Assembly: GCA_033065855.1 (NCBI GenBank)
Contig: JAVXUO010002323.1
Coordinates: forward strand, 72,501 to 136,500
DNA length: 64,000 nt
Origin: Escallonia rubra
Taxonomy: Eukaryota > Streptophyta > Magnoliopsida > Escalloniales > Escalloniaceae
Direction of reading: 5' to 3'
The notes under the pieces were generated by a model. That model saw only the letters and a program-made list of their open reading frames with translations. It was not told the origin of the DNA and did not search any database. Of the stretch, positions 12,393 to 60,275 are shown piece by piece (position 1 is the first letter of the stretch; each line of letters begins with the position of its first letter). The translations under genes and the position numbers were made by a program.

Positions 12393-13590
12393 TTAGAAGG
12401 AGACTGACTGAGGAGTGAGGATGGAGCTGGACCCTCTCAAATCCCTGTGGCTCAAACCCAATTCGATAATAGGATTTCTTGTCAAGGCGACCCTCGGATT
12501 ACTTCAAAAATTCTCTCTTTCCCTTGCAGCCACAGTGTGCAACGGACACAACTAAACACAATCCTCCGGCTGTATGCAAAATGTCCTCCTCGAGTCAAAT
12601 CCTCAATCTGATTGCCCAATCTTCTGATTCCTAGAAAATGTAGAGCTAATTAGTCGTACGAATTGAAATGCAAGACCAAACGCTATGTATCGGAGTTACA
12701 ATGTAAGGCCCATATAGAACAACAGATCTCTCATATGCAGACATCTCAAGATTCAGAAAGTTGCAATGATGCATAATTAGAGTCCGGATTTAGAAGTCAA
12801 ACATGTTGGGGATAGACAGTCTTAACATTCAATATTTTTATCTAACAAATTTGGAGAGACCTAAGACAATAATCATATCAAGATCAAACACTTCTATTCA
12901 AGGGTAACTCTGTAGTCTATTTTCCGCACAATGGACTTGTGTTCTTTTGGGAACATGACAACCGAAACAGTCTGTTCTTTTTGGTGTGCATATCTATGCA
13001 AATTCAGCTGATTGAAGCTGAATGATAACATTAAAGTACATATGTATCAGATTCAAGACTAACATATGCAGAAGATGTTAATTTGGCGGGACAAAAATCA
13101 GCACGACAAAACAGACTTGTGCGCACACAAGAAACGAGCAAGGCATGTACGTATATTGATTAGGGTCGATAAAGAACACTGCCGGGTGGCCTACTTGCTT
13201 AACATCGATCAAGCGGGATCAACAAGGAAAACCGCATAGCTAAAGTAGAATAATAAAGAGTATAATATACCTGTGGATCTTGCAGAACAGCATACAGGTT
13301 TTGCCCTTGAACAGAGAGACCAAAAAGGAGATTTTAGAGAAGCAGGAGAAGGGAATGAAGGGGAAAGAAGAGAAAAGGGGAAGTGGGTATTTGTGGTTTG
13401 GTAAGGAAAGGGGTGATGGGACAAAATTGGGAGCAGGAAATGGTGGAAGAAGATACGTGTGTGGGGAATAAGTGAGGTGAAAACCAGAAGTGTGGAACAA
13501 GTTTGTTTAGGTAAGTAAAATCGAAGTTAAATGGTTTGGGGGATGGATTGTTATGGATTCGGTGGGTGTTGGACTCTGTATTTTATAATT
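12393..13590 (-). promoter_or_regulatory. ARL 5'UTR exon, 5'UTR intron, spliced uORF and core promoter
   Basis: On the minus strand a TATAAAA box lies at 13581-13587, which predicts transcription starting near 13550. A non-coding first exon would end at 13271 (CCACAG then GTATAT). The intron would end with CCACAG at 12445, leaving 52 bases of leader before the start codon. In the spliced leader an ATG at 13293-13291 opens a 24-codon frame that crosses the junction and stops at a TAA touching the main ATG. The splice sites are inferred from consensus only. Confidence 0.55.
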
Positions 13591-14156
13591 ACGCGAAGGT
13601 GTATATGCATGAATGAATGGACTATAAGGGGAAATTTGGAGAGGGGGGTGGGGGGGTTGGATTCAGTGAATTCCCAAAACAAGTGGGGGTGTGGGGGCTG
13701 CTGCTGCTGCTGACATAGAAACCAAGTTGAGATGTTTCTTTTTGAAAAATATATACGAGGGGGATGCATGTCTCCCAAGGTTCTTCACCCCTGCCCCTCT
13801 CTTGTAATATCCTTTCCGGTCAAACATCAGCATCTACTTTATTTATTTCTTTCTTCCTTCCTTCCTTCTCTTCCCTTTATTTTGTACTGTATTGTTTTTC
13901 ACGTTTTTTTGCCGCATCTGGATTCTGGACCTCCCTTCTTCCTTTTAATGTGCTTTCTTGACTATTTCTTACTTTTACCCCTTCTGTTCTTCTTTCTAGT
14001 TATAGAAACATCATATTCTTTTTTCTTTTGGTTGGATAGAAACATCATAGTCGCCATTATAGATGATCGATTATAAGAGTGGATGTATCTTCGATCAAAA
14101 CATATCTTACTTCTCTGGCCTTAATCCATCTTTCAGTGCTCTCGTAACAAATTAAG

Positions 14157-14480
14157 GATATGTTTGATTTTTTTTCTTCAGTTTTTAAAACGGTGCTCTT
14201 TTTGAAAACCTCAATTTAGGAGTTTTAGGTTTTCAGTTTTGATTTTTATTTTGAGATCACCACCACTACCACCGCAGCCAGTCGGCCGGCAGCCATTGCC
14301 GGCGACCGCCACGCCCCACCACTGCCACCGCAAATCATCATAAAAGAAAAAACTCAAAATAAAAACTGAGTAATCAAACATTCATTTATTTTTGTAAAAA
14401 AAAAAAAAATTTTAACTGATTTTTTTTTTTTAGAAATAGAAAACCAAAACTAGAAGTGATTTCAAAAGTTACCTAACTTA
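14157..14480 (+). repeat. GC-core MITE-like repeat, copy A
   Basis: AT-rich arms surround a GC-rich core (CCACCACTACCACCGCAG, then CCGGCAGCCATTGCCGGCGA). The core is followed by the family's fixed tail ACTCAAAATAAAAACTG and a TTTTTGTAAAAA stretch. The same arrangement recurs at 14958, 20977, 24961 and 26607. It has no coding capacity. Confidence 0.65.
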
Positions 14481-14481
14481 C

Positions 14482-14540
14482 AAGAATATATTTAGTGGTT
14501 GTTTAACACCACGTCACTCGCATAAGTGGAGTTAGATTAC
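14482..14540 (+). repeat. Dispersed ~60-bp repeat, copy 1 (TTAGTGGTTGT-type)
   Basis: The motif AATATATTTAGTGGTTGT, then TTAACACCACGTCA, also occurs near 24411-24470 (same strand) and, inverted, near 27545-27612. The similarity spans about 60 bases with scattered mismatches. No known element is recognised. Confidence 0.55.
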
Positions 14541-14957
14541 CATTTACATCTTGAAAACTTAACGAAGTGATTACGCAGGGACAACATAGCAAATCTTAAT
14601 TTCAGGTAACCATGATTAGTGAAATATTAGAATTCAAATTTTCATCATAATTTTGAAGATCCCGCCCACCGATTTTGAAAAGATTTGGACACAAAGGTGT
14701 ACTATCTATGAATCGAAAGAGTTGTCATGCTCCACTTTGTGTTGTCTCCACCAAAATAAAATCAAAACAAAAAATCAACGCAATCATCACAGAAGCTACT
14801 CAATTCTAAGCCTCTGAAAAACTGAAATCAATTTCTCAAATTGTTCTACCACACATGTGACTCTTATAAACCAAAAAGCATAATGAGAACCGTAGTATAG
14901 AACCAACACCGGACTGCAAAATCTTGATCCAAATTGTCATCCAAAGATTACAGTTCA

Positions 14958-15145
14958 AATGTTATTGTTTAACGCCGCCGGCCATCGTCACGCCCTACCA
15001 CCGCAAACAACCAACAAAGAAAAAACTCAAAATAAAAACTGGATAATCAAAATCTATTTGTTTTTTGTAAAAAAAATTTTTTTAACTAATTTTTATTTTT
15101 ATAAAAACAAAAAATCAAAACTGAAAGGGATTTCAAACGCTACCT
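14958..15145 (+). repeat. GC-core MITE-like repeat, partial copy B
   Basis: The right half of the same family as copy A: a shortened GC core (GCCGCCGGCCATCGTCACG), the ACTCAAAATAAAAACTGG tail, TTTTTTGTAAAAA, and the flank GATTTCAAACGCTACCTAACTT. That flank matches the one after copy A, so B may be a duplicated and truncated segment of A. Confidence 0.55.
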
Positions 15146-16469
15146 AACTTATAGATTTTGAAGCCGTCCTGACTATTAATCTAATAAAAACAACACCGAG
15201 ATAATCTTGATTGACACACTACTTTGCAGTTTTAGTTTTGCCTGCCTTTTTTATTTTTCCCTTTTGCCTATTTCTCAATAATGGCATGGTGATCTAAAAA
15301 GCACCTTTCGAATCCACAGCAAGATGAGTCATAGCCACGATCCAACAATGAGCTGGTCATGTCAAGGGTTGACAGGATTTCATAACCACACCCGAGTGCT
15401 CAACATGCCATTTACAACATATACGTCGATAGAAACTCGCAACACAAGTAGCCCGCTCAACCGTGGTTAGGGCTGTATACGAACCGACTTTGAGCCGAGC
15501 ATGATCATGTTCGAACTCGTTCGTTTATTCTAAAGTTGTGTTTGAACTCGGCTCGTGTTCGTTAAGCATATATAATTCTGTGTTCGTGTTCGGTTCGTGA
15601 AAATAATCAAAAGATTGAACTCGACTCGGCTCGTTCGTTTAAACTTCACGAACCGAGCTCGAGCTTGAGTTCGTGTCAACTTATTGCTACAAACCAACTA
15701 AATTAACTTAGAGATAACCTGAAAACCCATTGGTAATTAACAATTATGTTCTTCCATACATTCATTACTGTAGCCACAAATATAATGCCAATTACTAATT
15801 ACTACTGCTGCATTAGACGAGTTTACAAAATAATGCCTTGTATAAAAGACGTAACTAAGCATGTACAAAATCTGCAGTTATACTTCCTACATAGTCCAAG
15901 TAGCGTATCAAGCATGCAGTCCATAAAAAAAGTGCAGCTTTCCCCTTTAATTAGTCCTGCAAAAAACAAAACCAACAATTAGGAGTTTTAACAATTTTCC
16001 ATATATATGCACCAATTGACTTGATGCAAAATGCTTGAATACCTTAATTACAAGTTTACAACATTCAAAGTAGCAAATTAAAGGTCATGCAAAATTCTTG
16101 TACAAAAGATGTGGCTATACTCCTTAAAACAATATAGACAGGTATCTCCCATGCAATCACAACAAAAGTCACAATTTCCTCCTTGATTTTGTCTTGCATA
16201 ACCGATAAAAGATTTATGAGTTTAAACAAACAATAATCATACACACTATTTGACTTCATAAGGATAAATAACATTCAAATGTGACATTACTCAATGGACC
16301 GAATACCGTATTACATAAACTACTACTGAGGCAGTTCAATCTCTCTCACTTCCTCCATTGTGCGCTACAAAAATAAAAAAAAGACAGAAGTTAGCAAGAA
16401 ATATTGTGTATAATATACTCGAACACAATGAAATAACGTTGTTAACTTTAGCAAAAATATAAGTAAGTG

Positions 16470-19092
16470 AATAACGTACAGTATAAACTTCCTTTACTCT
16501 GTACAAGGAATGTATCCAATCTCCTCCACATATCAAAGCTTTCCACAACCTTTGTTGATAATGATGCACGATAAGGGTCTATAACCCTACCACCGGTGCT
16601 AAAGGCAGCCTCCGAAGCAACTGTGGTGATTGGAATTGAAAGTATATCAACCGACATCTTTGACAATATTTTATACTTAAGATTGTTCGCTTTCCACCAC
16701 CCAATAACATCAAATTGAGACTCTAAATTCACTTCACAGATGTACACTCCTTCGTCAAGGTATGTTTCCAAGTCAGACTTAATAGGCATTACATTTTCCA
16801 TGCTTCTCACATAAAGATCATATTATGTCTTCCCTTTAGCTTTGTAGGTAGAAGTAGTATTACTAGAACCTCCCACAACACTACTTTCCTTAGTTACATT
16901 CGAGCAATGCAAAGCATGATTCAAGACATATTCCTTATACACCTCAAGCAGGGAACCTGACACCAACTCAATGTTCTTTTTCGACTCAACCTCATCGTAG
17001 ATCTTAGGAAAACAAAATTTAATGAATGTCATTTTGTACCTAGCAAAGAACCATGTAAAGCAGTTCTTAGATTCATCAAAAAGTAGACAAAATTAACCAA
17101 CAATCAATGTCATGTCCTTAATGAAAAGTTAATTAACAATTATTAGCAAAAGAGTATATGATAGGGCTCATTCATGCTAACTGTAAAGCAGTACTTAGAT
17201 TTTTGCTAACTGTTCACTTGAAGCTCTTTCATGCTATTTTCTCTAGTAGCTAGCCATGGTAGCTGCCTTTGCATGTAAATGAATCAAACTCTTCAACCAA
17301 ACATGAACACATATATTGCTGCAAATTCTGAGAACATCAACCCTCAACAAGCTCTTTCCATAAGAGCTGAGGTGCTTGAATCTGCCTACTTAGACCCACT
17401 CCTGGTGGAAATGGAAAGAATACAACATAATAAAGAACAAACTATCAGGATGCATGAAGAGATGGTTTGTGCGGCAGCTCTCTTTCTCACTCGACCCAGC
17501 ATTTCAGTAAGTGATGACCAAGTTCTATACAGATATTAAGGCTGAAAAAGTGAAAAGTATTTATTATATACTGTAATGAGGGGGAAAATATAGAGAAAAG
17601 ACATACCTTGGGTCCAAAACAGCAGCAATGGCCATCAACAGATTGCATTCACCCCAATATTTATCAAACTTTTCCTTCATTTTCATCGCCATAGATCGCA
17701 TGTAATTGTTTTCATCTCTGCTCTTCTCATTTAAGGCTTCCTTGATCTTCTACACCTCCGGAAGAAACATATTTGCAGTAGGGTACTTGGTCCCCGATAT
17801 GCTATCAGTGACCTCATGAAAGATCTCTAGGAACTTGCACACTTCTTCAGCTCTTCTCCAATCTTTTATACTTCAGGCAGCCATAAATAATTTGCATCGC
17901 GAGCAGAAAACCGAGGAAACACTTGCCTAAACTCTAGTGCTGCAGTCAACATAGCGTGTGTTGAGTTCCAACATGTGGCCACATCTAAAATGAGCTTCTT
18001 TTGAGGTAACTCTAGTGATTTAGCAATGTCACTGAACGTGATAATTCGAGATTCCGCAGCATTAATGTACTTCACGCTCTCACGAACATTTTCAATAACA
18101 TGCTTGACCTCACTAAGCCCGTCTTGCACCATAAGATTTATGATATGGGCACAACACCGCACGTGAAATATCTTCCCCGCAAAGAAAAAACTTATTTTCA
18201 ATGAGAAATCTTCATTCAAATACGTAATCGCTGCATCATTGTTGGATGCATTGTCAAAAGTCACAGTTGACACCTTGTTGCCAATTCCCCAATCATCTAA
18301 ACACTTAGTAATGGCCTCACATATTACTAGGCCAGTGTGAGGAGGTGGCACATCACAAAAGTTCAGTATTTTTTTCTGCAATTTCCAATCGGAATCAATG
18401 AAATGTACTGTAAGAACCATGTACCCAATCTTTTGGCCGGACTTCCAAAAATCTGAAGTAAGGCTAACTTTGCTAACACTTAAGAAAGTTGCCTTCAAGC
18501 TCTTTTTCTCCTTCTCATAGGTTGCCATTACATCACTCTTAGCGGTTGCTCGGGAAATACTTTCATAGTAGGGGGTGGCTGTCCTCATGAATCTATTAAA
18601 GAATTCATGCTCCATCATGTTAAATGGGTACTCATGGACAAGAATCATTTGTGCAGCAGCCTCCCTAACCTTAGCATGATTGTACTTGAAGTCCTTCTTG
18701 CTGACTTCATACTCCATCTTTCCAAGCTCAACATTTATCACAGATTGATTTGTAGCAGCTATTCCACGTTTAGGACAATAGGTATCTCGGTGTCTAAGAA
18801 GCTGAGTTGTAGTGCCACCTTTTGTCTTATTGAGGATAGCATTGCAAAGCTTACACTTGACTTTCTTTGTTCCATTTGCTAGAGTGACGTCAACAAAGAA
18901 GTCCCACACCGGAGAAGTTTTCTTTCTTTCCCGCCTTTTAAACATGGTGTTAACCTCTACCTCACCAATAGCAGCCTCCCCAACTGGTTCACTCATAATT
19001 ATAGCCTTGCCCTTTGACTTTGAAAGACCCGGTCGTGATGAGTTATTAGATATAGAAGACGCTGATGATAATTCAATCTCTTCACTAGACAT
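16470..19092 (-). pseudogene. hAT transposase (BED zinc finger, DDE/hATC), multiply disrupted
   Basis: An intact first block at 19092-17866 has a BED finger (SPVWDFFVDV, CKLC, HRDTYC) and hAT catalytic-core motifs (SLTSDFWKSGQ, VTFDNASNND). Next come a one-base frameshift near 17875 (after WLPEV), an in-frame TAG near 17755, and a predicted intron from 17605 to 17040. The second exon then runs from 17039 with MTFIKFCFPKIYDEVE. An in-frame TAA lies near 16815, and another frameshift near 16560 separates SLSTKVVE from ALICGGDWIHSLY. The C-terminal dimerisation signature TTVASEAAFSTGGRVID is present. The domain order and most residues are well kept, which suggests fairly recent inactivation, but no full protein can be made. 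Confidence 0.88.
17279..17539 (+). pseudogene. Fragment resembling plant MOM1-type helicase protein, inside the hAT intron (antisense)
   Basis: The 86-codon frame contains LDPLLVEMERIQHNKEQTIRMHEEM, which resembles from memory the coiled-coil segment of plant MOM1 (MORPHEUS' MOLECULE 1) proteins that precedes a KLRLKSECEKE-like stretch. The likeness ends exactly at HEEM, where the DNA reads ATG|GTTTGT, a splice-donor-like junction. This suggests a copied genomic exon edge, not a processed cDNA. It lies wholly within the predicted transposase intron (17605-17040) on the opposite strand. Quoted similarity is from memory and should be searched. Confidence 0.42.
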
Positions 19093-19790
19093 ATCTAAAA
19101 CAAAAATTCTAAATAAATTACTCTACAACCCAAAATTGGGTAGAACAAAGAAAAAAAGGTCATTGACGTAAAGAATTAAACTCATTCTCAATTTCATCCT
19201 GAAACTCAGCTAAATTCTAAGCTAAATTCTAGTCTCAACTGCAGGTATGGCTAACTTTCCCTTCAAATTCCTACATTGGCAGTGTAAATGAGAAAGAGAA
19301 ACTAGAAATAACCAGCAGGGTCTCCGACAGAAGCAAAAGTGAGAATCGATTATCAAAGTAACGCAATAACCAGCACTGGTTCAAAGAGAAACTAGAAATA
19401 ACCAGCACTGGTTCAATCAACAATCTCATCTTCTCCTTTCTATTAGTATTCCAGTAGTTTTGTTATATACAACAATGTGAAAAGGTACATATAATTTTTC
19501 TATGAGAATCCATGCTCATGACCAGCTAAAGAAAGAGTAGAAAATAGAAAACAATCAAATCATACTTCCGGGAGTTGAAAATATACCAGAGAAAGAAATA
19601 TAATCTGATCACTTTAGAGCAGTAAGCTCTAATTAGCTTGTCCGTGACTGTGAATAAGAAGATATCGATCAGAAAGCCTTCAAAGATCAGACGACTTGGC
19701 TTTTGTGGTGGAGCAGTTGCCGTTTGTGAGCCTCTAGCCTGACTTGGAGGTGGTCTGGCCGGCGATGTGGGCTGTGGTCTGGCCGGTGGT

Positions 19791-20024
19791 GATCTTGTGT
19801 GATGAAAGAGAGGGGGCTAAGTGTGCTTGACTGTTCGAGAAACAGAGAGAATGAGGCGGTATGAGCGGTGGTCTGGCGGCGGCGTAAGGTGTGGTCTGGC
19901 CGGTGGTGATCTTGTGTGATGAGAGAAAGGGAGCACAGGGCGCTTGATTGTTCGAGAATCAAAGAGAAGGAGGCGGTATGAGCGGTGGTCTGCCGGCGGC
20001 ATGGGGTGAGGTCTGGTCGTCGAC
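19791..20024 (+). repeat. 117-bp tandem repeat (2 units) near the hAT right end
   Basis: Two units starting GATCTTGTGTGATG at 19791 and 19908 share a TTGTTCGAGAA..CA segment, an AGGCGGTATGAGCGGTGG segment, and a GGTCTGGCCGGTGGT segment. A third, shortened GGTCTGGCCGG piece lies just to the left (19750-19780). Open frames here on the minus strand (Ser/His/Arg-rich) come from the repetition. Confidence 0.75.
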
Positions 20025-20517
20025 TCGTTGCCCGTCGGTGTACTGATGAGACAGGGGGTGTGACTATGGAGACTTGGTTTGAATGTCTCTGAACGGGAGG
20101 AGAAGGAAAATGGGTTTGGTGAGGATAAGTGATCCACATGCTTCCACGTCCCCAACACACGTCCCAATGGCCAATACACAGATATTTTGGCTAGAATATA
20201 TTGTATTTTTTAATGAGTATAAACGAACCAATATTCGTTTACAGGACTCGGTTCGTGTTCGGCTCGTTAAATAAATGAGCCCTCTTGTTCATGAACATTA
20301 ATAAACAAACATCATTATGTTCAAACTCGGCTCGTTTAATAAATGAACACTAAAATTGTGCTCGTGTTCGGTTCACTTATTACGTGAACGAACATGAACG
20401 AGTTTTAGAGAGAACGAACATCGAGCTGTTCATGAACAACTCTGTTCATTTACAGCCCTAACAGTGGTCATTCTATTGCAAATAATCCGTTCACCAACAA
20501 CCTAAATCCAAGCATTA

Positions 20518-20972
20518 AGGGTGTGTTTCGATCTGAGATTTGAATTGAAAATTTCACTTTGGAGAGTTTTTTAGAAATTCTTTAAACCGAATCTTTTGTT
20601 TGGATTGTACGAAAGAGAATTTGCGAAATTTTTGGAAGGATTTGAACTGGAAATTTAGGGCCTCTAAATCCATAATTTAAAATAACTAGTCTGGATTAGT
20701 TACTTCAAAGAAGTGATTTTGCTAAAACACTATGTAACTTTTGCTTACTTTTTTAGATATTTGTTCCCCACCTTTTTCATAGCTTTTTTTTTAAAGAAAA
20801 GTCTTGAATGCAATAATACTCATCCAAACTACCCAATAAAAATCCACAGAATAATAAAAAAAGTTCCCAAACAAAATATTTCGCAATGATGGGATTTGTA
20901 AATGAAGGAATTTCAAAATGAGAGAATTTAGAACTACCTAGTATTTCAAAATTCCACATTCAAGCACACTCT
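20518..20972. mobile_element. Putative MITE with short terminal inverted repeats
   Basis: The left end AGGGTGTGTTT at 20518 and the right end AAGCACACTCT at 20962-20972 are near inverted repeats. The arms contain complementary-looking AAATTTC/GAAATTT stretches, and there is no coding region. No target duplication is convincing. It begins 57 bases beyond the right end of the hAT element. Confidence 0.4.
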
Positions 20973-20976
20973 AAAG

Positions 20977-21368
20977 GTCTGTTTGAAATCACTTAAAAAA
21001 AAACCAGTTTACTTTTTATTTTTTACAAGAATAAATGGGTGTTTAATTACCTAGTTTTGTTTTGAGTTTTTTTTTTCTTTTGGGTGTTTGATTACCCAGT
21101 TTTTATTTTAATTTTTTTTCTTTGATAGTGGTTGCAGTGGCGGTGATGGCGGCGGCAGTGGCTGGCTGGGGGCGGTGATCGGCTGGTGGCGGTGGTGGGG
21201 GGAAGGTCTCAAAATAAAAAATCAAATTTAGAAACTCAAAACTCCAAAATAGAAGTTATTAAAAACAACCTGTTTTAAAAACTAATCTTCAAAATTGAAA
21301 GAAAAAAAATAAAAACTGTGTGTAAAACGCGTTTTCTGAAAACGAAATAAATTTCAAATGCCGTCTAA
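20977..21368 (-). repeat. GC-core MITE-like repeat, copy C (inverted)
   Basis: Inverse orientation to copy A: a GGTTGCAGTGGCGGTGATGG core within AT-rich arms, with GGGTGTTTGATTACCCAGTT and AATAAATGGGTGTTTAATTACC, equivalents of the family tail, on the left. The GTTTGAAATCA start and TTTCAAATGCCGTCT end mark the approximate limits. Confidence 0.55.
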
Positions 21369-24300
21369 GAATTAAGGATGAGACACAACTTTCTTATCAC
21401 ACCACTGCTTACTCAACTGACGAGACTAAAAGGAAAAAAAAAATGCATCACTGAAACCCAGGGTCTCATAAAGAGCCACATCCTTACAAACAAATGATAG
21501 CATTGAACGACCAAATCAGGACTCAATACCACAAGCAAAACCCTCCTAAGGCACCAAAGTGGAAGCAAAGATAGATTCAAACTCAAAACATAAATGTAAC
21601 CGAGCTGAACCCACAGGTTCTGATAAAACCGTTGAAGGTAGAACAAGACACCTTTAATCAAGCCAAGCCAGAGCCAAAACAAGGCAGCTCAAACCAATGC
21701 ACGTGGGAGCCAGGACAAGACACCTCCCACCGAGACCCAAAAAAATGAAAAAAAAAAAAAAAGAATAAAAAAATGATGACTACTCTGCTGAAGGAGATAG
21801 AAAAGGTTCGACCACTCTGCCGCCTCACGCGCGCTAACGCACCGTAGGCAGCGGAGTGAGGCGCTAGAGTTTGGGAGTTTAGAAGACCCAAGTTTTTTTT
21901 TGCACTTTTGAGTCGTCAAGACCGTAAACTTGTACCACTTATTTTTGAATTCATTAATCATGTAACAAAAGGGGCCGAACACGTTCACAATTATTGATAC
22001 AAATTTGGACAAACGCGTAAAAAAATATTCACGCACATAAACTCCACAAAAGTTGACCGGGTGAACACGCTTATTTATAGTAACATTTGAAACTCACAAG
22101 AGTCAACCAAATACAAACATGGATATAAAGGTTTTGTGCGGTAATATATTTGTGAAAATAATTTTTTCAACCTCGTCGCTCACTTTAGACAAAGCATGTT
22201 AAGTACAACTTACATGGTAGGGTTGGGGGGTGGGGTGGGGTAGGGAAGGACTCGATGATTAAGGCTGGACATGTCATGTGATTTTTGGTACTAGGTATTT
22301 CTTAAAGGGTGCCCCATCTATACATGCTCTCGCGTAGTGCTTTCCTGTGTACATAATTCACACAGCATTAAGTACTTGGTTGTTTTATGATGCCAAGTGG
22401 GCGGTAGATTATTTATATTCTGGTTTTAGCACTAAAAACTATATTTAGGGGTGACTAACTAGTAAGATTAATTAAGAAGCATAATAATAATAATAACAGT
22501 TGCAGAGTCTGGTCTTGTCATGTGAAGCCAGCATCCATCTGGTCTGGATGAGTTTGAGTTCAATTCAATGTATGCCATGGGACTCTTTTAAGTTCCTCGT
22601 ACGACCCTGCTTGCTTGCTGCACTTTTTCTCTTTGAACCAAACTTGGAATTGAATATACTAACTAATACCAGTTGTCACATACATAGGTTCAGGTTCAGG
22701 CTCAGGTTCATGAATGTAGGCGTAGCTAGCTAGCTAGCTAGTGGCTGTTTTCATCAACCTCTCTTACTCGATCTAAAACCAAATTGCTTTTGGCGTAATA
22801 ATTGATTTTGCCAATGCCCTGCTTGCTGGGTGTACGTTCGTTGCTTTGAATTTGAAATTCCCTCCTCTCTGTTCTCTCCTTTTTTACTCGCATGACGATG
22901 ATCAATTGATCATAATCATACAGTGTGTATGCATGCATCAAAGTTCTTAGTTTGCAAGTCAAGTCAAGTAATCAACACTGCCTTTTTTTTTTTTTTCCCA
23001 GCTTGAAGCAAATACTATACGAGTTTGCTACGGCATCGTGCAATGGACTTAAAACCGCCGAAGGGATAGACTTCCTTTGTTTTCCATGCACAATTGTAAT
23101 GTGCAACATTTCCTTGCCTACCTTTCTCCTTCCTTTGACGGGCTTTGAAATGAAACAAACCGGATAGTTATCGATCAGCGGGTACGAAAAATGAAAAAAA
23201 CACACAATATATAAAATAAATTCTTAACTGGCAGGCAGCTGGATGGGAGAGGATACAAGACTACCCTTTAGAGAGAATAACTGGCGGCCAAGAGATGTGA
23301 CATCAGTTGACTCGATTCATAAATTATTTTTCTGATGTGAGATTTGTATTTCAGCAAAGGTGGTATTCTATTTTTAATAAGTTAATATAAAGTGATAACT
23401 GCAATTGTATAAAACTCTGTCGGAATGAAAATTCAAATTTGGAATTTCAAAATCACATATCATCGAGATTCTTTGTCATTTTCACTGTCCCTTTTGGGGC
23501 CGCGGGTCTTGGATTTAGGTGGACTGGTACGCCTGCAGTCAGAGTCAGGACCACGTACAAATGTTTAGGATTCGATGTATTATGCACATATATGCTGCTG
23601 TGACGTTATGTCTGATTTGGCCTTTGATGCATCTATTCATACATATATATATTGATTGTAGTAGGAAAATAAAAACCGAGGCAAAATGGACGGTGACATC
23701 ATCCATATATATGCTGATTAATTTACTTACAATTACATCATCTATTCGTACATATATATGCTGATTAATTTACTTACTTACAATTACAAGACACCATACT
23801 TGTACTTGATTATCTATCTATTGATTACCAAATTTGTCTTTGGTGCTAAGATTCACTATTACACACTACTTATCGGCGCCTAATAATTGTGTGACGTTTT
23901 TAATCGCATTTTGGAAGATAATAATGGGGTTATAAGATAAGCTCTTTGTATTTATAACTGACTCACTCCATGTGTTAGCTTACAATTAAAAGCTAATCTT
24001 TTCTATTTCTGAATCATTTAGAAACAAAACCCATGAAATTTCTGTTGGAAAGACATCACGAATTTTTGATTTTTTTTTTTTTTAACAAAGAGTGGGTAGT
24101 TATAGTTGCACCAAAAAGGAGATATAAATAGGTTACCACTTTGGATTTTAGGGAGAAAAAAGAAAAAGAAAAAAAGAGCAATCACAAGTACTCGTACTGG
24201 TAGTAGTACTCACTCCCCCCGGGACCACGAATGCAATGCATGAACTGAGAACCGTGTAAAGGCGGTGGCTTGTCAGTTCACCCAAATGCAGGCCCCCTCA

Positions 24301-31246: not shown

Positions 31247-32206
31247 TCAGTTTACCTCATCATCATTATCATCACCCCCATCTTCTTTGTTCTTCTTGAG
31301 GCGGGTAGTACCACCCTCCTTGCTGATGGGTAACTTCATTGCTCCAAAGGGTGTGTCCACGTTGATGTTTCCCTTCATAGTGTAACCAGTACCTTTTCCC
31401 CTAATCATGTCCCAAAGAGCAGACCCAAACTCTTTAGGCCTGAAGGTGATAGGAATATCGATGTAAGTTATTCCATTCTTTGCAAGATTGGCAGATTTTG
31501 AGAGTTCTGCACCACCAATGCTCACATCAGACAGCCAAACCTCATAATCTAAATCATTAAGCCCCAAGTCAAAGTCGTTCTTATTTTCCAGTTTCAAATG
31601 AAGAACTGCAACAGTTTCTTCAAAAGAAAATCTCTCGAATTTAATTTTCTCAAGATCGATATCAGGCTTGTAAGGTATAGGGATCTCTCCGGTTTTTTCA
31701 AGCGGCAGAGTCAGCCTACCAAACACAGGCACATCCACAATGAGGTCAACCTTGATTCTGTAAGGAATGATGCTTCCAGGCTTTATGTCATCGTATGTGC
31801 CTTTAATGTCATCATATATAAGAGTAAGTGGTATCTTCACAGTCTCTGAACCATGTGCATGGATCGTTCCAGCATCAGGGATCAAACCGGAAACTAGCTT
31901 CCTTCCATCACTTTCAACTAAGTAGTTTATGTCAATGAGAGGAATTGGAATGGGACACGGATTTTTCACCAGCACATCCACAACTATCTCAGCCTTCTCA
32001 AGGTTAATTAAAGGAATGTGTATTCCAGAAACATCTGCAGTTGGCTTCCCAAATCCTATCGTTTCCTCAATCTTTTCACCAATATCATGGATAAAATCCT
32101 TTACCTTGTCAATGAATCCCCCTTTTCCTTCACCTTTATCGTCTTCTTTGTGTTCTTTCTCATCGACATTCCTTTCAACTATCTCTGGCTTATCAGACGA
32201 TGCCAT
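31247..32206 (-). CDS. LEA26: LEA_2 / Lea14-type desiccation-related protein (two WHy domains)
   Basis: This uninterrupted frame encodes 319 residues. An acidic/basic N-terminus (to about 50, with GGFIDKVKDFIHDIGEKIEE) is followed by two WHy/LEA_2 domains. The first, about 58-165, contains VDVLVKNPCPIPIPLIDINY; the second, about 180-290, contains LENKNDFDLGLNDLDYEVWL. An acidic Asp-rich tail closes the protein. It matches from memory the Arabidopsis two-domain LEA_2 protein At2g44060. These proteins are folded (unlike most LEAs), cytosolic, and linked to desiccation and ABA responses. The end codons GATGAG|GTAAAC form a splice-donor consensus, so the annotated C-terminus may be replaced by a short downstream exon. 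An AG acceptor lies two bases upstream of the ATG, indicating a 5'UTR intron. Confidence 0.94.
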   Translation of the reverse strand: MASSDKPEIVERNVDEKEHKEDDKGEGKGGFIDKVKDFIHDIGEKIEETIGFGKPTADVSGIHIPLINLEKAEIVVDVLVKNPCPIPIPLIDINYLVESDGRKLVSGLIPDAGTIHAHGSETVKIPLTLIYDDIKGTYDDIKPGSIIPYRIKVDLIVDVPVFGRLTLPLEKTGEIPIPYKPDIDLEKIKFERFSFEETVAVLHLKLENKNDFDLGLNDLDYEVWLSDVSIGGAELSKSANLAKNGITYIDIPITFRPKEFGSALWDMIRGKGTGYTMKGNINVDTPFGAMKLPISKEGGTTRLKKNKEDGGDDNDDEVN

Positions 32207-38852: not shown

Positions 38853-41004
38853 ATGGCTGAATTATTGAAGAAAATGAGGCGTGCATCGTCATCACGAAAA
38901 ACATCATCATCATCGCAAGCACCACCACTAGCACAAGCGCCAGCGCCACGGCCATCACAAACACCAATCCAAGCACCAACACAACCATTCGTTCCTGGAC
39001 GAATGAGTACAGGCTGTATGATAGATACCCAAGCCAATTGGGAGTTCAATCAAAACATTCCAGATTTTGAATACACGCCTGATGAAGACCCCCTGCATTA
39101 TAGTCAAGGACGCAGCTCGGTTGGCGAAGCTACTACTCAGTGGCATAATCTCAACCCTATGCCTGGTCATGATGAAGAAGGGCCGAGCAATGCCTCCGAT
39201 AACGTGCCAGAAGTCCAAAAAGGGAAAAAGAAGAAAGCCGAGTGTTGGAATCATTTCGATGTAGTTACGGTGGACGGCATCCGAAAAGCTCGATGTAAGT
39301 ACTGCTCTAAATTATTTTCGTCTGGTAGTGGTAATGGACATCTTAACAGGCATTACCCTCAGTGTGCACCTCGACAAGGCCACGTCGAACCTACCCAAAC
39401 GCAGTTATCTTTTGACGGTAAGTTATTTGTTTATAATCAGCGAGAGCAAAGAGACGGTCTCGCTGAATTTGTTATTCATGATGAACAAGCCTTTTCTTTT
39501 GCCGATAATTCTAAGTACTCTAGATATATGAACACATACGTTCAACCTTTGTACAAAAAGGTTACTAGAAACACAACTAGATCCGATGCACTCCGACAGT
39601 ACAATGCTGCCAAAGCACGCCTTATCGATTATTTCGATAAATTTGACGGTAAAGTTAGTCTTACTTCTGATATTTGGCAATCTCCATTTACTTTTGTTAG
39701 TTATTCTTGTGTGACCGCTCATTGGATTGATGCAGATTGGGTTATGCACAAGAGAATCATCGCTTTCGAGCACTTTCCTTATCCGCACGATGGAATGAAC
39801 ATTGCTATTCTTATATTAAAAGCATGTACCACATTTAAAATATAGGATAAATTTAATTGTTCAAGATGGTTTAGCTGCTGCAGGAGATATTCTGCTCAAA
39901 ATGAGGGGTATGACAGCGTATGTTAATGGCTCGAGTTTGAGAACACAACAATTTAAAACGTTGTGTGTTCAATATAATATGCCTCGCAGGAGAGCAGTTA
40001 CATATGTGGTCCACAGGTGGAACTCTACATACCACATGCTTTTACACATTCTGGCATACCGAGAAGTCTATACGCATTTTCTACTAATCCAGTTCCCAGC
40101 CGGCTTGCCAACTCAAGAGGAATGACAGATGGCCACATACCTAGCTGAATTTTTAAAGGTATTCTACACGTCTACCAATTTATTGTCTGGTACGTACTAT
40201 CCCACCTCTCCTCTCGCTGTAATAGAAATTCTCAAGATGGCTACAATGTTAACAAAATGGAGATATATAGGACCCTTTCAACAAATAGTAAAAGAGATGG
40301 ATAAAAAATTTAATAAATATTGGAAGAAATTGCCTGTTATTTTTGTTGTGGCTACTTGTTTAGATCCTAGGTTAAAGTTGCATGGCGTGAACGCCTCGAT
40401 ACAAGAGATATCGAAATTAATGTGCTACACAGCAGATGAGACAATCGCACTCACAGCAAAAGTGAGCAAGAGGTTTGAGGACTTGTTCAACCTCTATCGT
40501 AATTCTGCTGACGTGCGCGGGCGAGCTACATCATCATCCACTGCTGAGAGGTATTATGCGCCATACCTTCAGGGCTTTGAACATCTAGTAGCAAGACAAC
40601 TACCAGGTGAAGGTACTTCTAATTCGGCAGGTCCGTATACTTTTTCCTCTTTTAATGAGATTGGTGTATATTCAAATACTGATCATTATTCTGATTTATC
40701 AAGGCAAGAACAGGTTAATTTTAATTTGTTAAATTTTTGGAAACAAAATCAAAACATGTATAAAACTTTATCCCAAATTGCACGGGATGTACTGCCAGTG
40801 CAAGCCTCCACGGTTGCTTCAGAGTCGGCATTTTCAGCCAGCGGAAGGGTTTTGGATGACAGGAGGAGTCGTCTTAACCCCGAGTCGCTCGAGCTATGTG
40901 TATGTTGGAAGGATTATCTTGATGCGAATTACCGCGAGCAAGATAAACCGATTGATGATAGGAAGAGCAGTGACTCGGATATTGAAGTACTTCCGGATGA
41001 TTAG
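38853..41004 (+). pseudogene. hAT transposase (RICESLEEPER/BED type), internally deleted
   Basis: The 38853-39845 frame has a Ser/Ala/Pro-rich N-terminus, a BED finger (AECWNHFDVV, CKYC, HLNRHYPQC) and the first catalytic block (KVSLTSDIWQSPF). It then runs into unrelated codons and a stop near 39845. The expected FDNAS block is missing, and the coding sequence resumes in another frame at INLIVQDGLAAAGDIL (about 39850). A TGA near 40123 (EE*QMATYL) splits the remainder. The C-terminal dimerisation domain is intact in sequence (QASTVASESAFSASGRVLDD). Loss of the second catalytic region means it cannot be active. Confidence 0.88.
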
Positions 41005-47479: not shown

Positions 47480-48899
47480 CCAACAATCACCCACTGTGGT
47501 GGCTATTAGTAGCTGCAACATGATCCCTGCATATATGATCAGCCAACCCATTCCTGAAGTTGGCCATGCGGTTACACGTTGCATGAGACAAGTCGGGACT
47601 TTCGAAAATGGTTGCCTCATCTCCATGTACTCGAATTCCTTCTGCCATGAAATCATTGAAGAGAGGGTCGTCTGGCGTATTTAGGCGGATGAAGTTGTGC
47701 AGAACAAAACAAAACAAGCGTTGACGATACTGTTTTGCCTGGTCAGGTTGTAATTCGACATTAACCTTAAAATTGGAAACCTGGCCTTCAGAACTCCAAA
47801 GCATCGTTCAATAACATTACGCAAAGATACGTGTTTGTAGTTAAACATTTCCCTAGGTCCTCTAGGTTCATTCCTTGGTCCCTCAAAGTCGTGAAGGTGG
47901 TAGCACTCGCCACAATATAGGGCTAAATAACCATCCACATTACTATATCCACTATCGACCACATAGTACTTATCTGCGAACCAAAATCGATGTATCGTCT
48001 TCAAAATAAAATTTGAAGTTTGAACTCCTATCTAATGAGAATACAATCATGAAGCGGTAACTCATTTACTTACTCGGAGAGGGCCGAGGGAAATCAACAT
48101 CTGATGATGTGATAACTTCTGCATGAACTCTTGAATCATTCGCACTTTCCTCCCATCCCACATGGACAAATGTGAACATCATGTTGAAGTTACAGGCGGC
48201 CATATATTCCCTTTCCTTGAATGAGATGCATTCATCTTCGACTTAGGTACAACGGCCGCCACAATTGTACCATCAATTGCCCCAATGCAATCCTGTAGAA
48301 ATAAGGCCAAATTAAATCATGTTAGTTAGTGGTCCAACATTAATCTAATTTACGAACAACATAGCCTTAACTAAAGCCGGTACCTTGAAGTACGGGTAGT
48401 ACTTCGAACTGTTTGGTATGTGCGGATCGACGTTGTCCATAGCCTGCGGCTTTATGATTAACATTCCTAGATAACCCAAAGCCCAAGCAACACGTTTAAT
48501 GGTCCGGCGTATGGTATCAAGTGAGCATTAAAACCGTTCACACAATTGCCGCATCCGTTCTGTGTGACTAACACAATTCAAGAAAATGCCCAACGCCTCT
48601 TCAACACCGACGTGAGTGTGTGCGTCATCTCTAAGCCATCCATTATCCCTAAGAGCCAATGTTCTAAATGCATCCGAATACATCCTCATTACATTATACA
48701 TCCTAGATGGATGACCATTCAATAATTCTTCAACATGAGCACTCCCAGTGAGTACAGACGTATACATAGGCCATAGGACCCTATCTAATGCTGCACGTCT
48801 ACGTTCTATTTCCTCTAACATGTAAATGTCATGAAGGTCATCATCTGACGATGATGTGTCACCATTAGGCCATGTAGCATTGGCTTGCGAGGATGACAT
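47480..48899 (-). pseudogene. Harbinger-type DDE transposase (broken)
   Basis: An N-terminal part at 48899-48528 is followed by an in-frame TAA (CERF*CSLDTIRRTIKRV). An intron is likely between PYFK|GTACCG and ACAG|GATTGC. Then come the first catalytic aspartate (DCIGAIDGTIVAAVVPK), a frameshift near 48215, the second aspartate (YYVVDSGYSNVDGYLALY) and the glutamate region (YKHVSLRNVIERCFGVLKAR). The latter continues across a frameshift near 47700 into NFIRLNTPDDPLFNDFM. The family cuts and pastes elements with TWA target sites. The lesions rule out activity. Confidence 0.88.
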
Positions 48900-55082: not shown

Positions 55083-58000
55083 TCACTCCCTTTGCATGTT
55101 GGAGATGCCTTCCCCTATGTGATCCTTGAGGATCTCTCTAAGGTACTCCAACTGCTCAAAATCTCCTTGAAGTTCCTCCCACTGCAATTAAACGACCATT
55201 ATAACACATGCATCGCATTAGTTTTCACTTTATAAAGTTCTAACAAGCAGAACCACACATCTTCAAAGGAAGAATATATTTGAAACTAAAAACTGATCAA
55301 GTCTGATAGTTTTTTTATAGGTTAATGTGTGTGTGTGTGCACGCGCCTGTGAGGGCAGGAAGAAACAGGCGGCTGAAAAAGGATCCCCAGTGGGACACTA
55401 ATATTTATGTCAAATGCAAAATATTATTATGCCCCCCCGAATTCGTTATTGAAGTGGCTCGGCTTACCTGACCTTTATGCCACCATCGAAAATGCACCAA
55501 AGTCCTGTGAGATTCTAGTATTTCGTTTGTTACTCAGGAGCTCTTTAAGAGCCCGCTTAAAGCTGAGGTGGCAATTCTGCTTCAAATTTATAGAAGAAGA
55601 ACAACTAGTGTAACCCTATTGTCCCTAACCCAATATGTTATGTTAAAGCTGATGAGTACTGATATTAATTCCTAATCGAAACCCTAAACTTCAGATTCTT
55701 AACAAAGTAGGATGAGACAAATCTCACCATGACAAAAGTAAGGCAAATCATACCGAGCCACATATCCGCAAATAACATCTTAAGACATTTCTAGATGCCT
55801 ACAGTTACCTGCCACATGCCATGTCCTTCCCCCACTAATGCAGTGGAAGTCACTCTGTCGTCTTGTCCTAATCAGTTTCCAGCAATTACCACAACAATCA
55901 GCAACCAAATTTGAAAAGCAAAGTTGATTGAAACCCAAGCATGAACGCAAACAGATCGAGTATACCATAGGAACCTTTTCGCTTTGAGAAATGACTAGGT
56001 TTTCAGATGGAAACTCCGGCAAGAACAAAACTACATTTATGTCCAGAGCCCAAATTCCACAGATGGGTACCATTTCCGCCAAACGCATTTGATAGATCAA
56101 ATAGTGAGCTAGGTTCTCCCATTGTTCCATGAAACAGTGATCCAGATACTCGATGCGGTCAGAAAAGAAAACCTCCAACACGCTCCCATAACTCCCTTCA
56201 GCTTCCTGATACACGGGTAAATGCGGGCAAATGGGCAGTCTTGGAATAAAACTTCCTCTCCTGCGCTTGTTGAAACTCAGCTTCCGTGGAGAGCTCATTG
56301 CACTTTGTTGCTGCCCACTCAATCACAACAAACCAGCCATCTCTTCCCCTCAGCCCCCCTCTCTTCCCTCCCTCCTCTTCCGCACCCTCCCTCCCTCTTT
56401 CCACCACTACAGCCATATATCCCTTCTTAATTGTGCACCAAGTATATGGAGAAGAGCGGGAGCGGGTATGAGGATCCGGCACGGAGGAGCGTCACTACAA
56501 TACAGGGTTTTGCGGTGGGAGGGAGAGTCACTAATATACAGGGTTTTGGGGTGGGAGCGGGAGCAACCGTGAGGTTCCTGAGCGAGATTCCAAGGAAGAA
56601 ACATCAGAAAAAATGGATAATCCTAAAACTAATCTTTTTCCACCTCATTCAGAAACTTCTCCTAGGTCCACAAGTCTCCCTCAATCAACCAGCAGTCCAC
56701 AGACTTCATATCTATCCAGCCGTACTTCCCAGACCACAGCTCTTCTTTCTCTTTGAGCCAAGAAAATGCCTTACTGCCTCCCTCGTTTAGTTTATTTCCC
56801 TCCCATATGTTTGTCAGGATTTAAATCTTTTCACTTTTTCATCTGAGCATCAATTATTATTACATGGAATTGTTCACGGGGTCTGTGTAGGGTGAGATAT
56901 ATGTTGCTCCAGACGGCAACCTTACTGTTGCACCAAAGGCTCAGTGAGAACTGAGAAGGTGCATACAAAGGGGGGAAGATGTTCCAACCTTCAGAGCCAA
57001 CTGACTCGTTGTCCCTTATGCCAAAGATTCTGACCTCGGGACCAAAGAAGAGAATGCACTAGTACAGTAATTATTCCTCTATCATCTTCACTTCAAAGGG
57101 AGGGACCTAAAAGTGAAAGCTGGCAAGCCCCACTCATCAACCCTACCACTAACCTAAGCCTATACCTGTACGGAGGACTGGCTTCTGTTCCTAGAACGAC
57201 TGGGCTATCGCTGTTATATAGAAGCCACGGCTTGTTCCTCTCAATGAGCCTTTATGTAGTCAACCACAGCTCTCTGACAAAGTTGTATGACAGTTCTCCC
57301 ACGTATCATATAACAAAATCCTTACAAGATGACCAACTAAACCACGAGGACGTGCATATAAAGTGTCAACCTCCAGTGATGAACATCGTATGTACTTGAG
57401 CTTTGATAGTTTATACGTAGTAAAATTGCATGTTTCCTCTTCCTCCCTCAAGGGACAACCTGATTATCTCTTGTTGGTCGGTTAAGATCATTGACAAGAC
57501 TAGTATTCTGGATTAGAACATTTTTTTCATTTGCCCTAATTGCGACTAGTGTGCTTAAAGAGTAAAAGTTTCCTTCAAACCTTAGACTTGCTGGTAAAGG
57601 GTAGCTTTAACTATAATCACTCTACAATATGGCATGGTTGCCATACAGTATTCTCAAACTTCTTACAAATAGAAAATAGCTTAGAGTCGCGGACATGTGT
57701 ACACAGATGAATACAGAAAAAATAAAAGCATTTGTTGCAACTATGAAATGCAATTATCATATTAAACAAGAAGCTAGAGATGTTCCGATAGTAACGATAA
57801 ATAATTCCATGAGTAGTAAGGAACTTGCCTTTCAAACATAAAATTAGTGAAGAAGATAGAAATAATTTAAAAATTCAGAGCAGTTCCTAGCGCAGAGATT
57901 CAAATATGATCTACAGAAGGAAGGCTTAACTAAAATGTAAGCTCCCATATGGGAAACCAATTCCAGAAATTTTTCCCTCGCAGAAATCCCCCGCTAAGTC

Positions 58001-60275
58001 AAGAATGTGGTACATAGTCATGACTCTGGTTACGAGAAAGAAAGTTCACTATACTCCCTCCTCCCTCCCTCCCTCCACTGGGTCTTAATGGTAACTTACT
58101 GCAACAACAGTACCTTCCTTTAAAAACAAGTATAGAACAAAAGCAGATGCATTTGAAGATAAAGCTGATTTGCTGAAAGAGTTGAGGTAACTCACCTTTT
58201 GGTAAGACAGCGATGCAAGCTTCCAACCAGCAGCAGTAATGTAACGACGTTTTAGCATCGTATGGCCCAAAGGGACCCCTGCAGAGAAGCACAAGACAAT
58301 CAGGAATATTAACAGTGACCAAATAACCAAATGAAATCAGCAGGAGATGCTGATATATCTTGCGGTAGAGGACTGTGTGACACCCACCAGAATTTCTTGA
58401 GAAATGAGTTGGCCCATCAATCTCCAAAGCAACTTTTTTATCAACCAAGACTGCGTCCAAAGTGTATCCATCGGCAGAATACTCCCTCACCCAGTCAAGG
58501 CCTGTGCTAACAAGAAGACGCGCGACCTCCTTTTGAAATGAGGAAGTGACTTTCTGATTAAACCTCTTGGTTCTTCCAGCACGAACAATTTTCTCCTCCA
58601 GGTCACTCCTGAGGGACAACTGAAGATGCGGACACTCAAGCTTCAGGCATAGATTCACTAGATAAACCTGAGAAGCAAACATGATGTCCTCCCTATACTG
58701 CTCCGAAATCCGTTGCTCCTCGAAATGGCTTAAAGTCTTCCACACGTGAGAAAAGAAATTCCGATCCATTTGCCCAAGAACAGCACAAGACCAGGCTATA
58801 TTGCCAAGCTGATCCCTGCTAAAATTGAGCACAGGAGAGCCAAGAATTTCTTCAGCCTCACAGTCTTTACTAGTTTCTGCAGCTCTTTCTTCCGTGCGTT
58901 CTTCTTTTACTTCGTGTAAGCAACATGTATATTGGTGTACATCTTTGAAAACATTATCAAGAGATTCCACTATCTGGTCAGCAGACTCATTAAGAGAAGC
59001 AAAAGCCCACAACAGCTGAGCAAGTTCTTGAGCCTGAAATGTGTGGATTATATCTGAAGCTCTTTTTGATAGTTCTGAAAACAGCACTGGAGCCGAATGC
59101 CGCATAGATGCAAAAGCGCCCGCAAGGTTCGCAACATTCTGGGAGTTCATTTCACCAACCTTTGTCGTTGCCACCTCTGCTACTCTATCCATTTCCGACA
59201 AGTAGAGAAGCTCACCTCCAATCTTAGACAATGCCCACGCAATATTTGAGATGCCTTGAGCCGAGCATTCCATTAATGACATCATCGCAATACCCACAAG
59301 CATAGACATCTCCTTTTGACGAGCAAATGCCAGCCTATGAGTCCTCATCATCGAAACTTTCTCCATGTTCTTAGCAATCCTATGGAGCGCGGTGGCAATG
59401 TTCAACGGAGAGAGAGGCGAAGGACTCAGCCCTTTCCCGACTGCCATTATCATCTCAGCAGTAATCTCGAGCACTTCATCTGCCGTCTGCGCTTCCACAA
59501 TTGCCTTGTTCAAGTTAATCTCTTTCCTACGGTCGGATGGCCCCGAAAATTGAGATAGCCTTTCAATAAAAATTTCCCTATTCCTCTCCTTCTGTTCGTC
59601 GAACATCCCATCCGCAATCATACTCACACTCCTTCTAAGTTGGTCTCTATCATCAAAATCTTCTTCGTCTAAATCTGAATCTGAATCCTCTTTCACACCC
59701 CTAGCCATCTTATCAACCTTGTGTTTATCCCCCACCATTTTCTTGCTCTTCTTTTTCTTCTTCTTTTTATTAACCGTGACGAGGTCCTCCATCGTCCGAC
59801 TCAAACCCCTAGACTCGATGGACTTGAGGGCAATCTTTCTTGCCCTGACGCACCAATCCATTGCATCCGTGTCCTGAATCAGCTTAGACTTTTTCTCCTG
59901 CTTTCGCTTCTTAGGGGGGAGGAACCCCAAAGGGTTCAGCTCCCCAATAAATTCCGCTTCCCAATCCATATCGGAACCTTCTTCTTGTTTATTATCATCA
60001 TTATCCTCCTCATCGTCAATGTCATCCACTATCTCAATTCTAACAGGACTATAGTTTTTCCCAGCATTAACTAGAAAAAAGTTCTTTCTTCTTTGAAATT
60101 GGACAAAACCCAGGTGGGGTCTAGGCCTTGAGAACGCAAATTCTGGGCTTGTGATGGTGAGCTGGTGCGGGTGTCGGGTTAGTTTTGAGTGAATGAAATT
60201 GGAAGCCACACAAGTCAAGGACATGGGTGGTTGTAAGTATGTGTGACTATGTGTAATGGGTAACACTGCCTCCAT
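55083..60275 (-). CDS. RAP: RAP-domain protein, chloroplast rRNA maturation (3 exons)
   Basis: Exons 60275-58388, 58278-58196 and 55181-55083 join in frame (GT-AG) into 689 residues, close to the Arabidopsis RAP protein At2g31890. A Ser/His/Pro-rich N-terminus suggests a chloroplast transit peptide. An acidic tract (about 80-105) and a long lysine run (about 168-180) follow. The middle is made of weak helical octotricopeptide-type repeats ([53 protein letters not shown]). The C-terminal RAP domain, about 600-672, carries [14 protein letters not shown], then [15 protein letters not shown] and [14 protein letters not shown]. In Arabidopsis the protein binds the 16S rRNA precursor and aids its trimming. 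Exon 3 encodes only 32 residues and lies 3014 bases away. No lesion is seen. Confidence 0.94.
55780..56482 (-). other. Unrecognised open frames within RAP intron 2
   Basis: Two overlapping minus-strand frames (56322-55780, 180 codons; 56482-56198, 94 codons) read [20 protein letters not shown] and [20 protein letters not shown]. The mixed composition is more protein-like than neighbouring frames, and they would join with one frame change near 56230. The 56482 frame is preceded by a GGGAGG-rich repeat. I know no family for it. It could be a relic of a retrocopied or captured gene, or chance. Confidence 0.25.

Follow-up and report, generated by a model that had tools for sequence, protein, structure and literature searches.

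Captured gene fragments are already known in plants. Grapevine Hatvine-6 hATs share their transposase sequence and inverted ends and carry host-like exon and intron sequence, and a CACTA element with a gene fragment in inverted, potentially antisense orientation has been published, as set out in the available sections of one report (PMC2528002). Pack-hATs have been published for maize, and the available part of that account classes Pack-TYPE elements as non-autonomous and without a transposase match (PMC8903248).

The window, the whole 64,000-nucleotide stretch of Escallonia rubra DNA analysed here, contains a hAT element with a broken transposase gene. On balance we favour a dead hAT that carries a transduplicated piece of the host gene MOM1 in its transposase intron, now as a passive passenger. 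Like Hatvine-6, such an element would be a hAT bearing host-like gene sequence; the variable regions of Hatvine-6, however, often have high DNA identity to identified grapevine sequences according to the sections of that report at hand (PMC2528002), whereas here the source is read from 23 residues. With Pack-hATs the locus would share hAT-type ends around host coding DNA. Identity as a Pack-TYPE element, in so far as the excerpted definition goes, is ruled out, as the element keeps a broken transposase gene with its domains present. A transduplicate in a dead hAT, as in Hatvine-6, appears to be the best reading. If the MOM1 origin is true, the locus is one more hAT with a host gene fragment, the source being a transposon-silencing factor, and placement of the fragment in the transposase intron need not disable the transposase.

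The hAT element and its transposase

The ends of the element, the duplicated target site and the two parts of the transposase gene lie as follows.

15468-20460, minus strand (strand of the transposase): hAT transposon of 4993 bp, from inverted ends, flanking duplication and internal hAT domains
15460-15467, no strand: left target-site duplication, ACCGTGGT, from the end search
15468-15483, plus strand: left terminal inverted repeat, TAGGGCTGTATACGAA, from the end search
20445-20460, minus strand: right terminal inverted repeat, TAGGGCTGTAAATGAA, from the end search
20461-20468, no strand: right target-site duplication, ACAGTGGT, from the end search
17607-19092, minus strand: transposase part 1 (BED zinc finger and DUF659-like region, up to the predicted splice donor), from ORFs and domain matches
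16451-17039, minus strand: transposase part 2, from YKMTFIKFCFPKIY to the hAT dimerisation region, from ORFs and domain matches

The ends were sought at 13000-16500 on the left and 19100-23000 on the right as inverted ends matching at no fewer than 11 of 16 positions, flanked by an 8-bp duplication matching at no fewer than 7 of 8. The pair TAGGGCTGTATACGAA/TAGGGCTGTAAATGAA with ACCGTGGT/ACAGTGGT ranked first, with 14 of 16 positions matching in the inverted ends and 7 of 8 in the duplication. Of the other 14 among the best 15 pairs, most were A- or T-rich runs, and two coincide with the termini of 15468-20460 or fall just beyond them. In Pfam, the minus-strand transposase matched the BED finger (E 2.5e-6) and Dimer_Tnp_hAT (E 2.6e-22) above their curated cut-offs, and a DUF659 match in part 1 fell under its own. 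Short inverted ends with an 8-bp duplication, a BED finger and a C-terminal dimerisation domain, all features of hAT membership, are thus present together. The intact transposase expected of an autonomous copy is missing, the gene having one frame change (near 17866-17900) and two in-frame stops, one past the frame change in part 1, after FLPEV, and one at 16823-16825 in part 2. The stretch 15468-20460 is a defective hAT copy. At 19749-20016, where the stretch from the start of the transposase to the element's right terminus lies, a 117-bp unit is repeated 2.3 times; it falls in a repetitive 157-aa ORF at 19687-20160 on the minus strand.

The two parts of the transposase are separated by a predicted intron.

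17040-17606, minus strand: predicted 567-nt phase-2 GT-AG intron of the transposase, from splice-site letters and the continuity of a second hAT

Its splice sites are canonical (GACCCAAG/GTATGT ... TTCTTTGCTAG/GTACAAAATG), part 1 ending in GTTTTGGACCCAAG/GTATGT and part 2 starting at TTCTTTGCTAG/GTACAAAATGACAT, and phase-2 readthrough of the predicted splice gives VLDPRYKM. The prediction is supported by a second hAT in the window, whose ORF at 40129-41004 reads CLDPRLKLHG, with DPRLKL at the same place, unbroken. This second transposase (38853-41004, plus strand) consists of two open frames with a frame switch near 39821; its hAT-like RNase-H and Dimer_Tnp_hAT domains score above cut-off and its BED finger just under, and it is 31-41% identical to the first across three aligned pieces.

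An antisense frame resembling MOM1

The initial annotation had placed an 86-codon plus-strand frame inside the transposase intron, and that frame is present. The segment quoted from it and the donor-like GT that follows were found letter for letter at 17393-17470, and the hAT host, the intron and the antisense placement are borne out by domains, splice sites and strand.

17279-17539, plus strand: 86-codon open frame, antisense to the transposase, from the ORF list
17393-17461, plus strand: 23 codons aligned without gaps to Arabidopsis MOM1 CMM2 residues 1734-1756 (numbering of PMC3276543)
17465-17470, plus strand: GTTTGT, candidate splice donor one codon past the end of the MOM1 match, from the sequence; the local alignment ends earlier

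The frame lies entirely within the predicted intron and is preceded directly, on its 5' side, by an in-frame TAA. Its length is weak evidence: when the intron was dinucleotide-shuffled 1000 times, 32 of the shuffles contained an ORF with an ATG start and 86 or more codons. The segment DPLLVEMERIQHNKEQTIRMHEEM occupies 17393-17464 in frame, and GTTTGT comes next.

The only MOM1 reference compared was the CMM2 region of the Arabidopsis protein (AtMOM1) in PDB entry 3vem, which covers AtMOM1 1700-1814. CMM2 is AtMOM1 1734-1815, and positions 1736, 1737 and 1740 at its N-terminus were mutated in that study, as far as its available text goes (PMC3276543). By this numbering the match starts at D1734, the start of CMM2, and the window has the hydrophobic residues L, L and M at 1736, 1737 and 1740. 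The peptide DPLLVEMERIQHNKEQTIRMHEE gives an ungapped alignment with the opening 23 residues of CMM2, with 8 identities, 14 positives and a score of 44; the limits of this span come from the local alignment that was observed, a choice that favours the match. The remaining CMM2 residues, about 59, are absent from the frame, and no counterpart to them was found among the best 15 of the 728 window frames of at least 40 aa. On the 5' side of DP, the resemblance to MOM1 fades to weak with a joined query.

How readily such a match arises depends on the register in which it is counted. In the CMM2-start register, a score of 44 was reached by one of 200000 shuffles of the segment, and the next best of the 38919 open 23-mers in the window scored 32. 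Dinucleotide-shuffled windows reached 44 in that register in none of 800 cases, the maximum being 43, and in 13 of the 800 when any register of 3vem was allowed; a first run of 25 shuffled windows had given none (best 40) and one, respectively. In gapped local alignment, the frame ranked second among the 728 frames with a score of 44, against 49 for a DDE transposase fragment in the window; when the frame was shuffled 5000 times, 9 of the shuffles also attained 44.

Database searches with the frame returned no matches. Pfam gave none for 17279-17539, a silence that tells little because the genuine Arabidopsis CMM2 sequence also finds no MOM1 family there, and phmmer against PDB, MOM1 entry 3vem included, gave none for the frame or its core. 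Among viral contigs, the frame gave 8 pattern stretches and a CMM2 sequence 11, and among prokaryote contigs the frame gave 41; none of these was confirmed, as is expected of a plant sequence.

The end of the resemblance was also considered. The last codon of the match is 17459-17461, and beyond it Arabidopsis MOM1 continues KKSILKAELERK and the window frame MVCAAALFL. The similarity thus stops one codon before the donor-like GTTTGT, which fits what captured genomic DNA would be expected to show. The training set for codon scores comprised six open stretches from the window, including the hAT transposase; not every one is a proven gene. The scores were +0.091 for 17336-17464, a sub-range picked after the fact, +0.047 for 17279-17464 and -0.02 for the tail at 17465-17536. 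The whole frame scored +0.028, rank 15 of the 98 ATG ORFs of at least 60 codons. The match end and the codon scores would weakly fit genomic DNA that crosses from an exon into an intron.

It is possible, if rather doubtful, that the frame is simply an ordinary open stretch of this hAT's intron and that its helix-like peptide, rich in E, K and R, looks like the beginning of a coiled coil by chance. Frames of this length arise in shuffled introns, equal matches to some register of 3vem arise in shuffled windows, the best CMM2-start score in those windows (43) comes close to 44, a transposase fragment outscores the frame once gaps are allowed, and phmmer and Pfam return no matches. Such a coincidence would, however, have had to fall in the CMM2-start register, to end where a GT follows and to coincide with codon usage that looks more like that of a gene over the matching part than over the tail. 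Set against only the distant Arabidopsis protein, the match falls short of the usual standard for homology. The likeness to MOM1 that the initial annotation had proposed is upheld as a residue match in the CMM2-start register, but homology is unproven in view of the phmmer result and the 13 of 800. We regard a MOM1 origin of 17393-17461 as probable from the alignment.

Route of a proposed capture

The captured piece, if it is from MOM1, would comprise the end of an exon carrying the start of CMM2, together with the opening bases of the intron after it, taken up in antisense. The hAT would have acquired this short piece of host genomic DNA in its transposase intron by transduplication. Since such a capture would have left the splice sites untouched, the transposase message could still have been spliced; the element would have decayed later, leaving the fragment passive. 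Capture from a host silencing gene, as first annotated, thus agrees with the hAT, the intron and a CMM2-register match ending at a donor-like GT, but shares the unproven homology of the match itself.

Short direct repeats lie beside the frame. Four families were found at 16990-17650, three of them between the 3' end of the intron and the frame.

17054-17073 and 17182-17201, no strand: first filler-like pair of direct repeats, from the repeat listing
17170-17184 and 17199-17213, no strand: second such pair, same source
17166-17179 and 17223-17236, no strand: third such pair, same source

Two of these three pairs match over 14 bases with at most one mismatch. Counted in that way, two repeats were observed in the intron, against a shuffle mean of 0.05, and one of 60 shuffles reached two; one 18-base direct repeat was observed, against none in 60 shuffles. 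Templated break repair leaves copied local sequence beside foreign sequence. The repeats near the frame look like such repair filler, and capture during repair of a double-strand break or gap, with copied local filler left alongside, is preferred because local repeat copies adjoin the putatively foreign sequence. A literature search returned no report that ties filler DNA and double-strand break repair to gene capture by transposons.

Nested insertions are common in plants, and a smaller transposon or a Helitron could have brought the MOM1 piece into the hAT intron. This is quite improbable here. A search for inverted repeats with flanking duplications gave a single weak candidate, at 17177-17511, with 8 of 10 positions matching and a 2-bp duplication, and exact direct repeats of more than 8 bases are missing from the flanks.

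Possible effects on MOM1 and other genes of the window

The initial annotation had also suggested that antisense or hairpin RNA from the fragment might touch MOM1 expression. CMM2 is the most critical MOM1 element for silencing in the portion of the source available (PMC2507757), which makes the idea of a transposon acting against its own silencing attractive. The fragment is antisense to the transposase transcript, and antisense regulation has been proposed where a CACTA element carries a PPR fragment that is likewise inverted, as recounted in the sections of that work at hand (PMC2528002). The proposal that antisense or small RNA from the fragment lowers MOM1 expression and so shields the transposon is nevertheless most improbable, given a broken transposase, a MOM1-like exon stretch of about 70 bases and RNA of the intron that folds no better than its shuffles (z-score 0.39; 64 of 100 shuffles equally or more stable). 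Hairpin or otherwise structured RNA was rejected on the same z-score and on the two inverted repeats found, both weak, so that the hairpin claim goes unsupported, as does the effect on MOM1 expression. We likewise give very little credence to the element, or intact relatives of it, yielding a MOM1-dampening RNA that would ease their own silencing. Such an effect, if true, would be far more important than the capture itself, and nothing here supports it. The MOM1-like fragment in this dead hAT probably does nothing.

Rfam gave no match at gathering score across the window. A scan of the intron for bacterial promoters and terminators, which is meaningless in a plant, returned 3 promoter-like sites (shuffle mean 1.7) and 0 terminator-like sites (0.3) and was set aside.

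Three other coding stretches were noted in the window, all on the minus strand. A DDE_Tnp_4/Plant_tran transposase fragment lies at 47687-48031. An open frame of 319 aa at 31247-32206 has a strong LEA_2 match. The 758-aa frame at 57999-60275 resembles organellar RAP-domain proteins; its matches to FAST kinase-like and MTES_1575 domains are weak and lie under cut-off.
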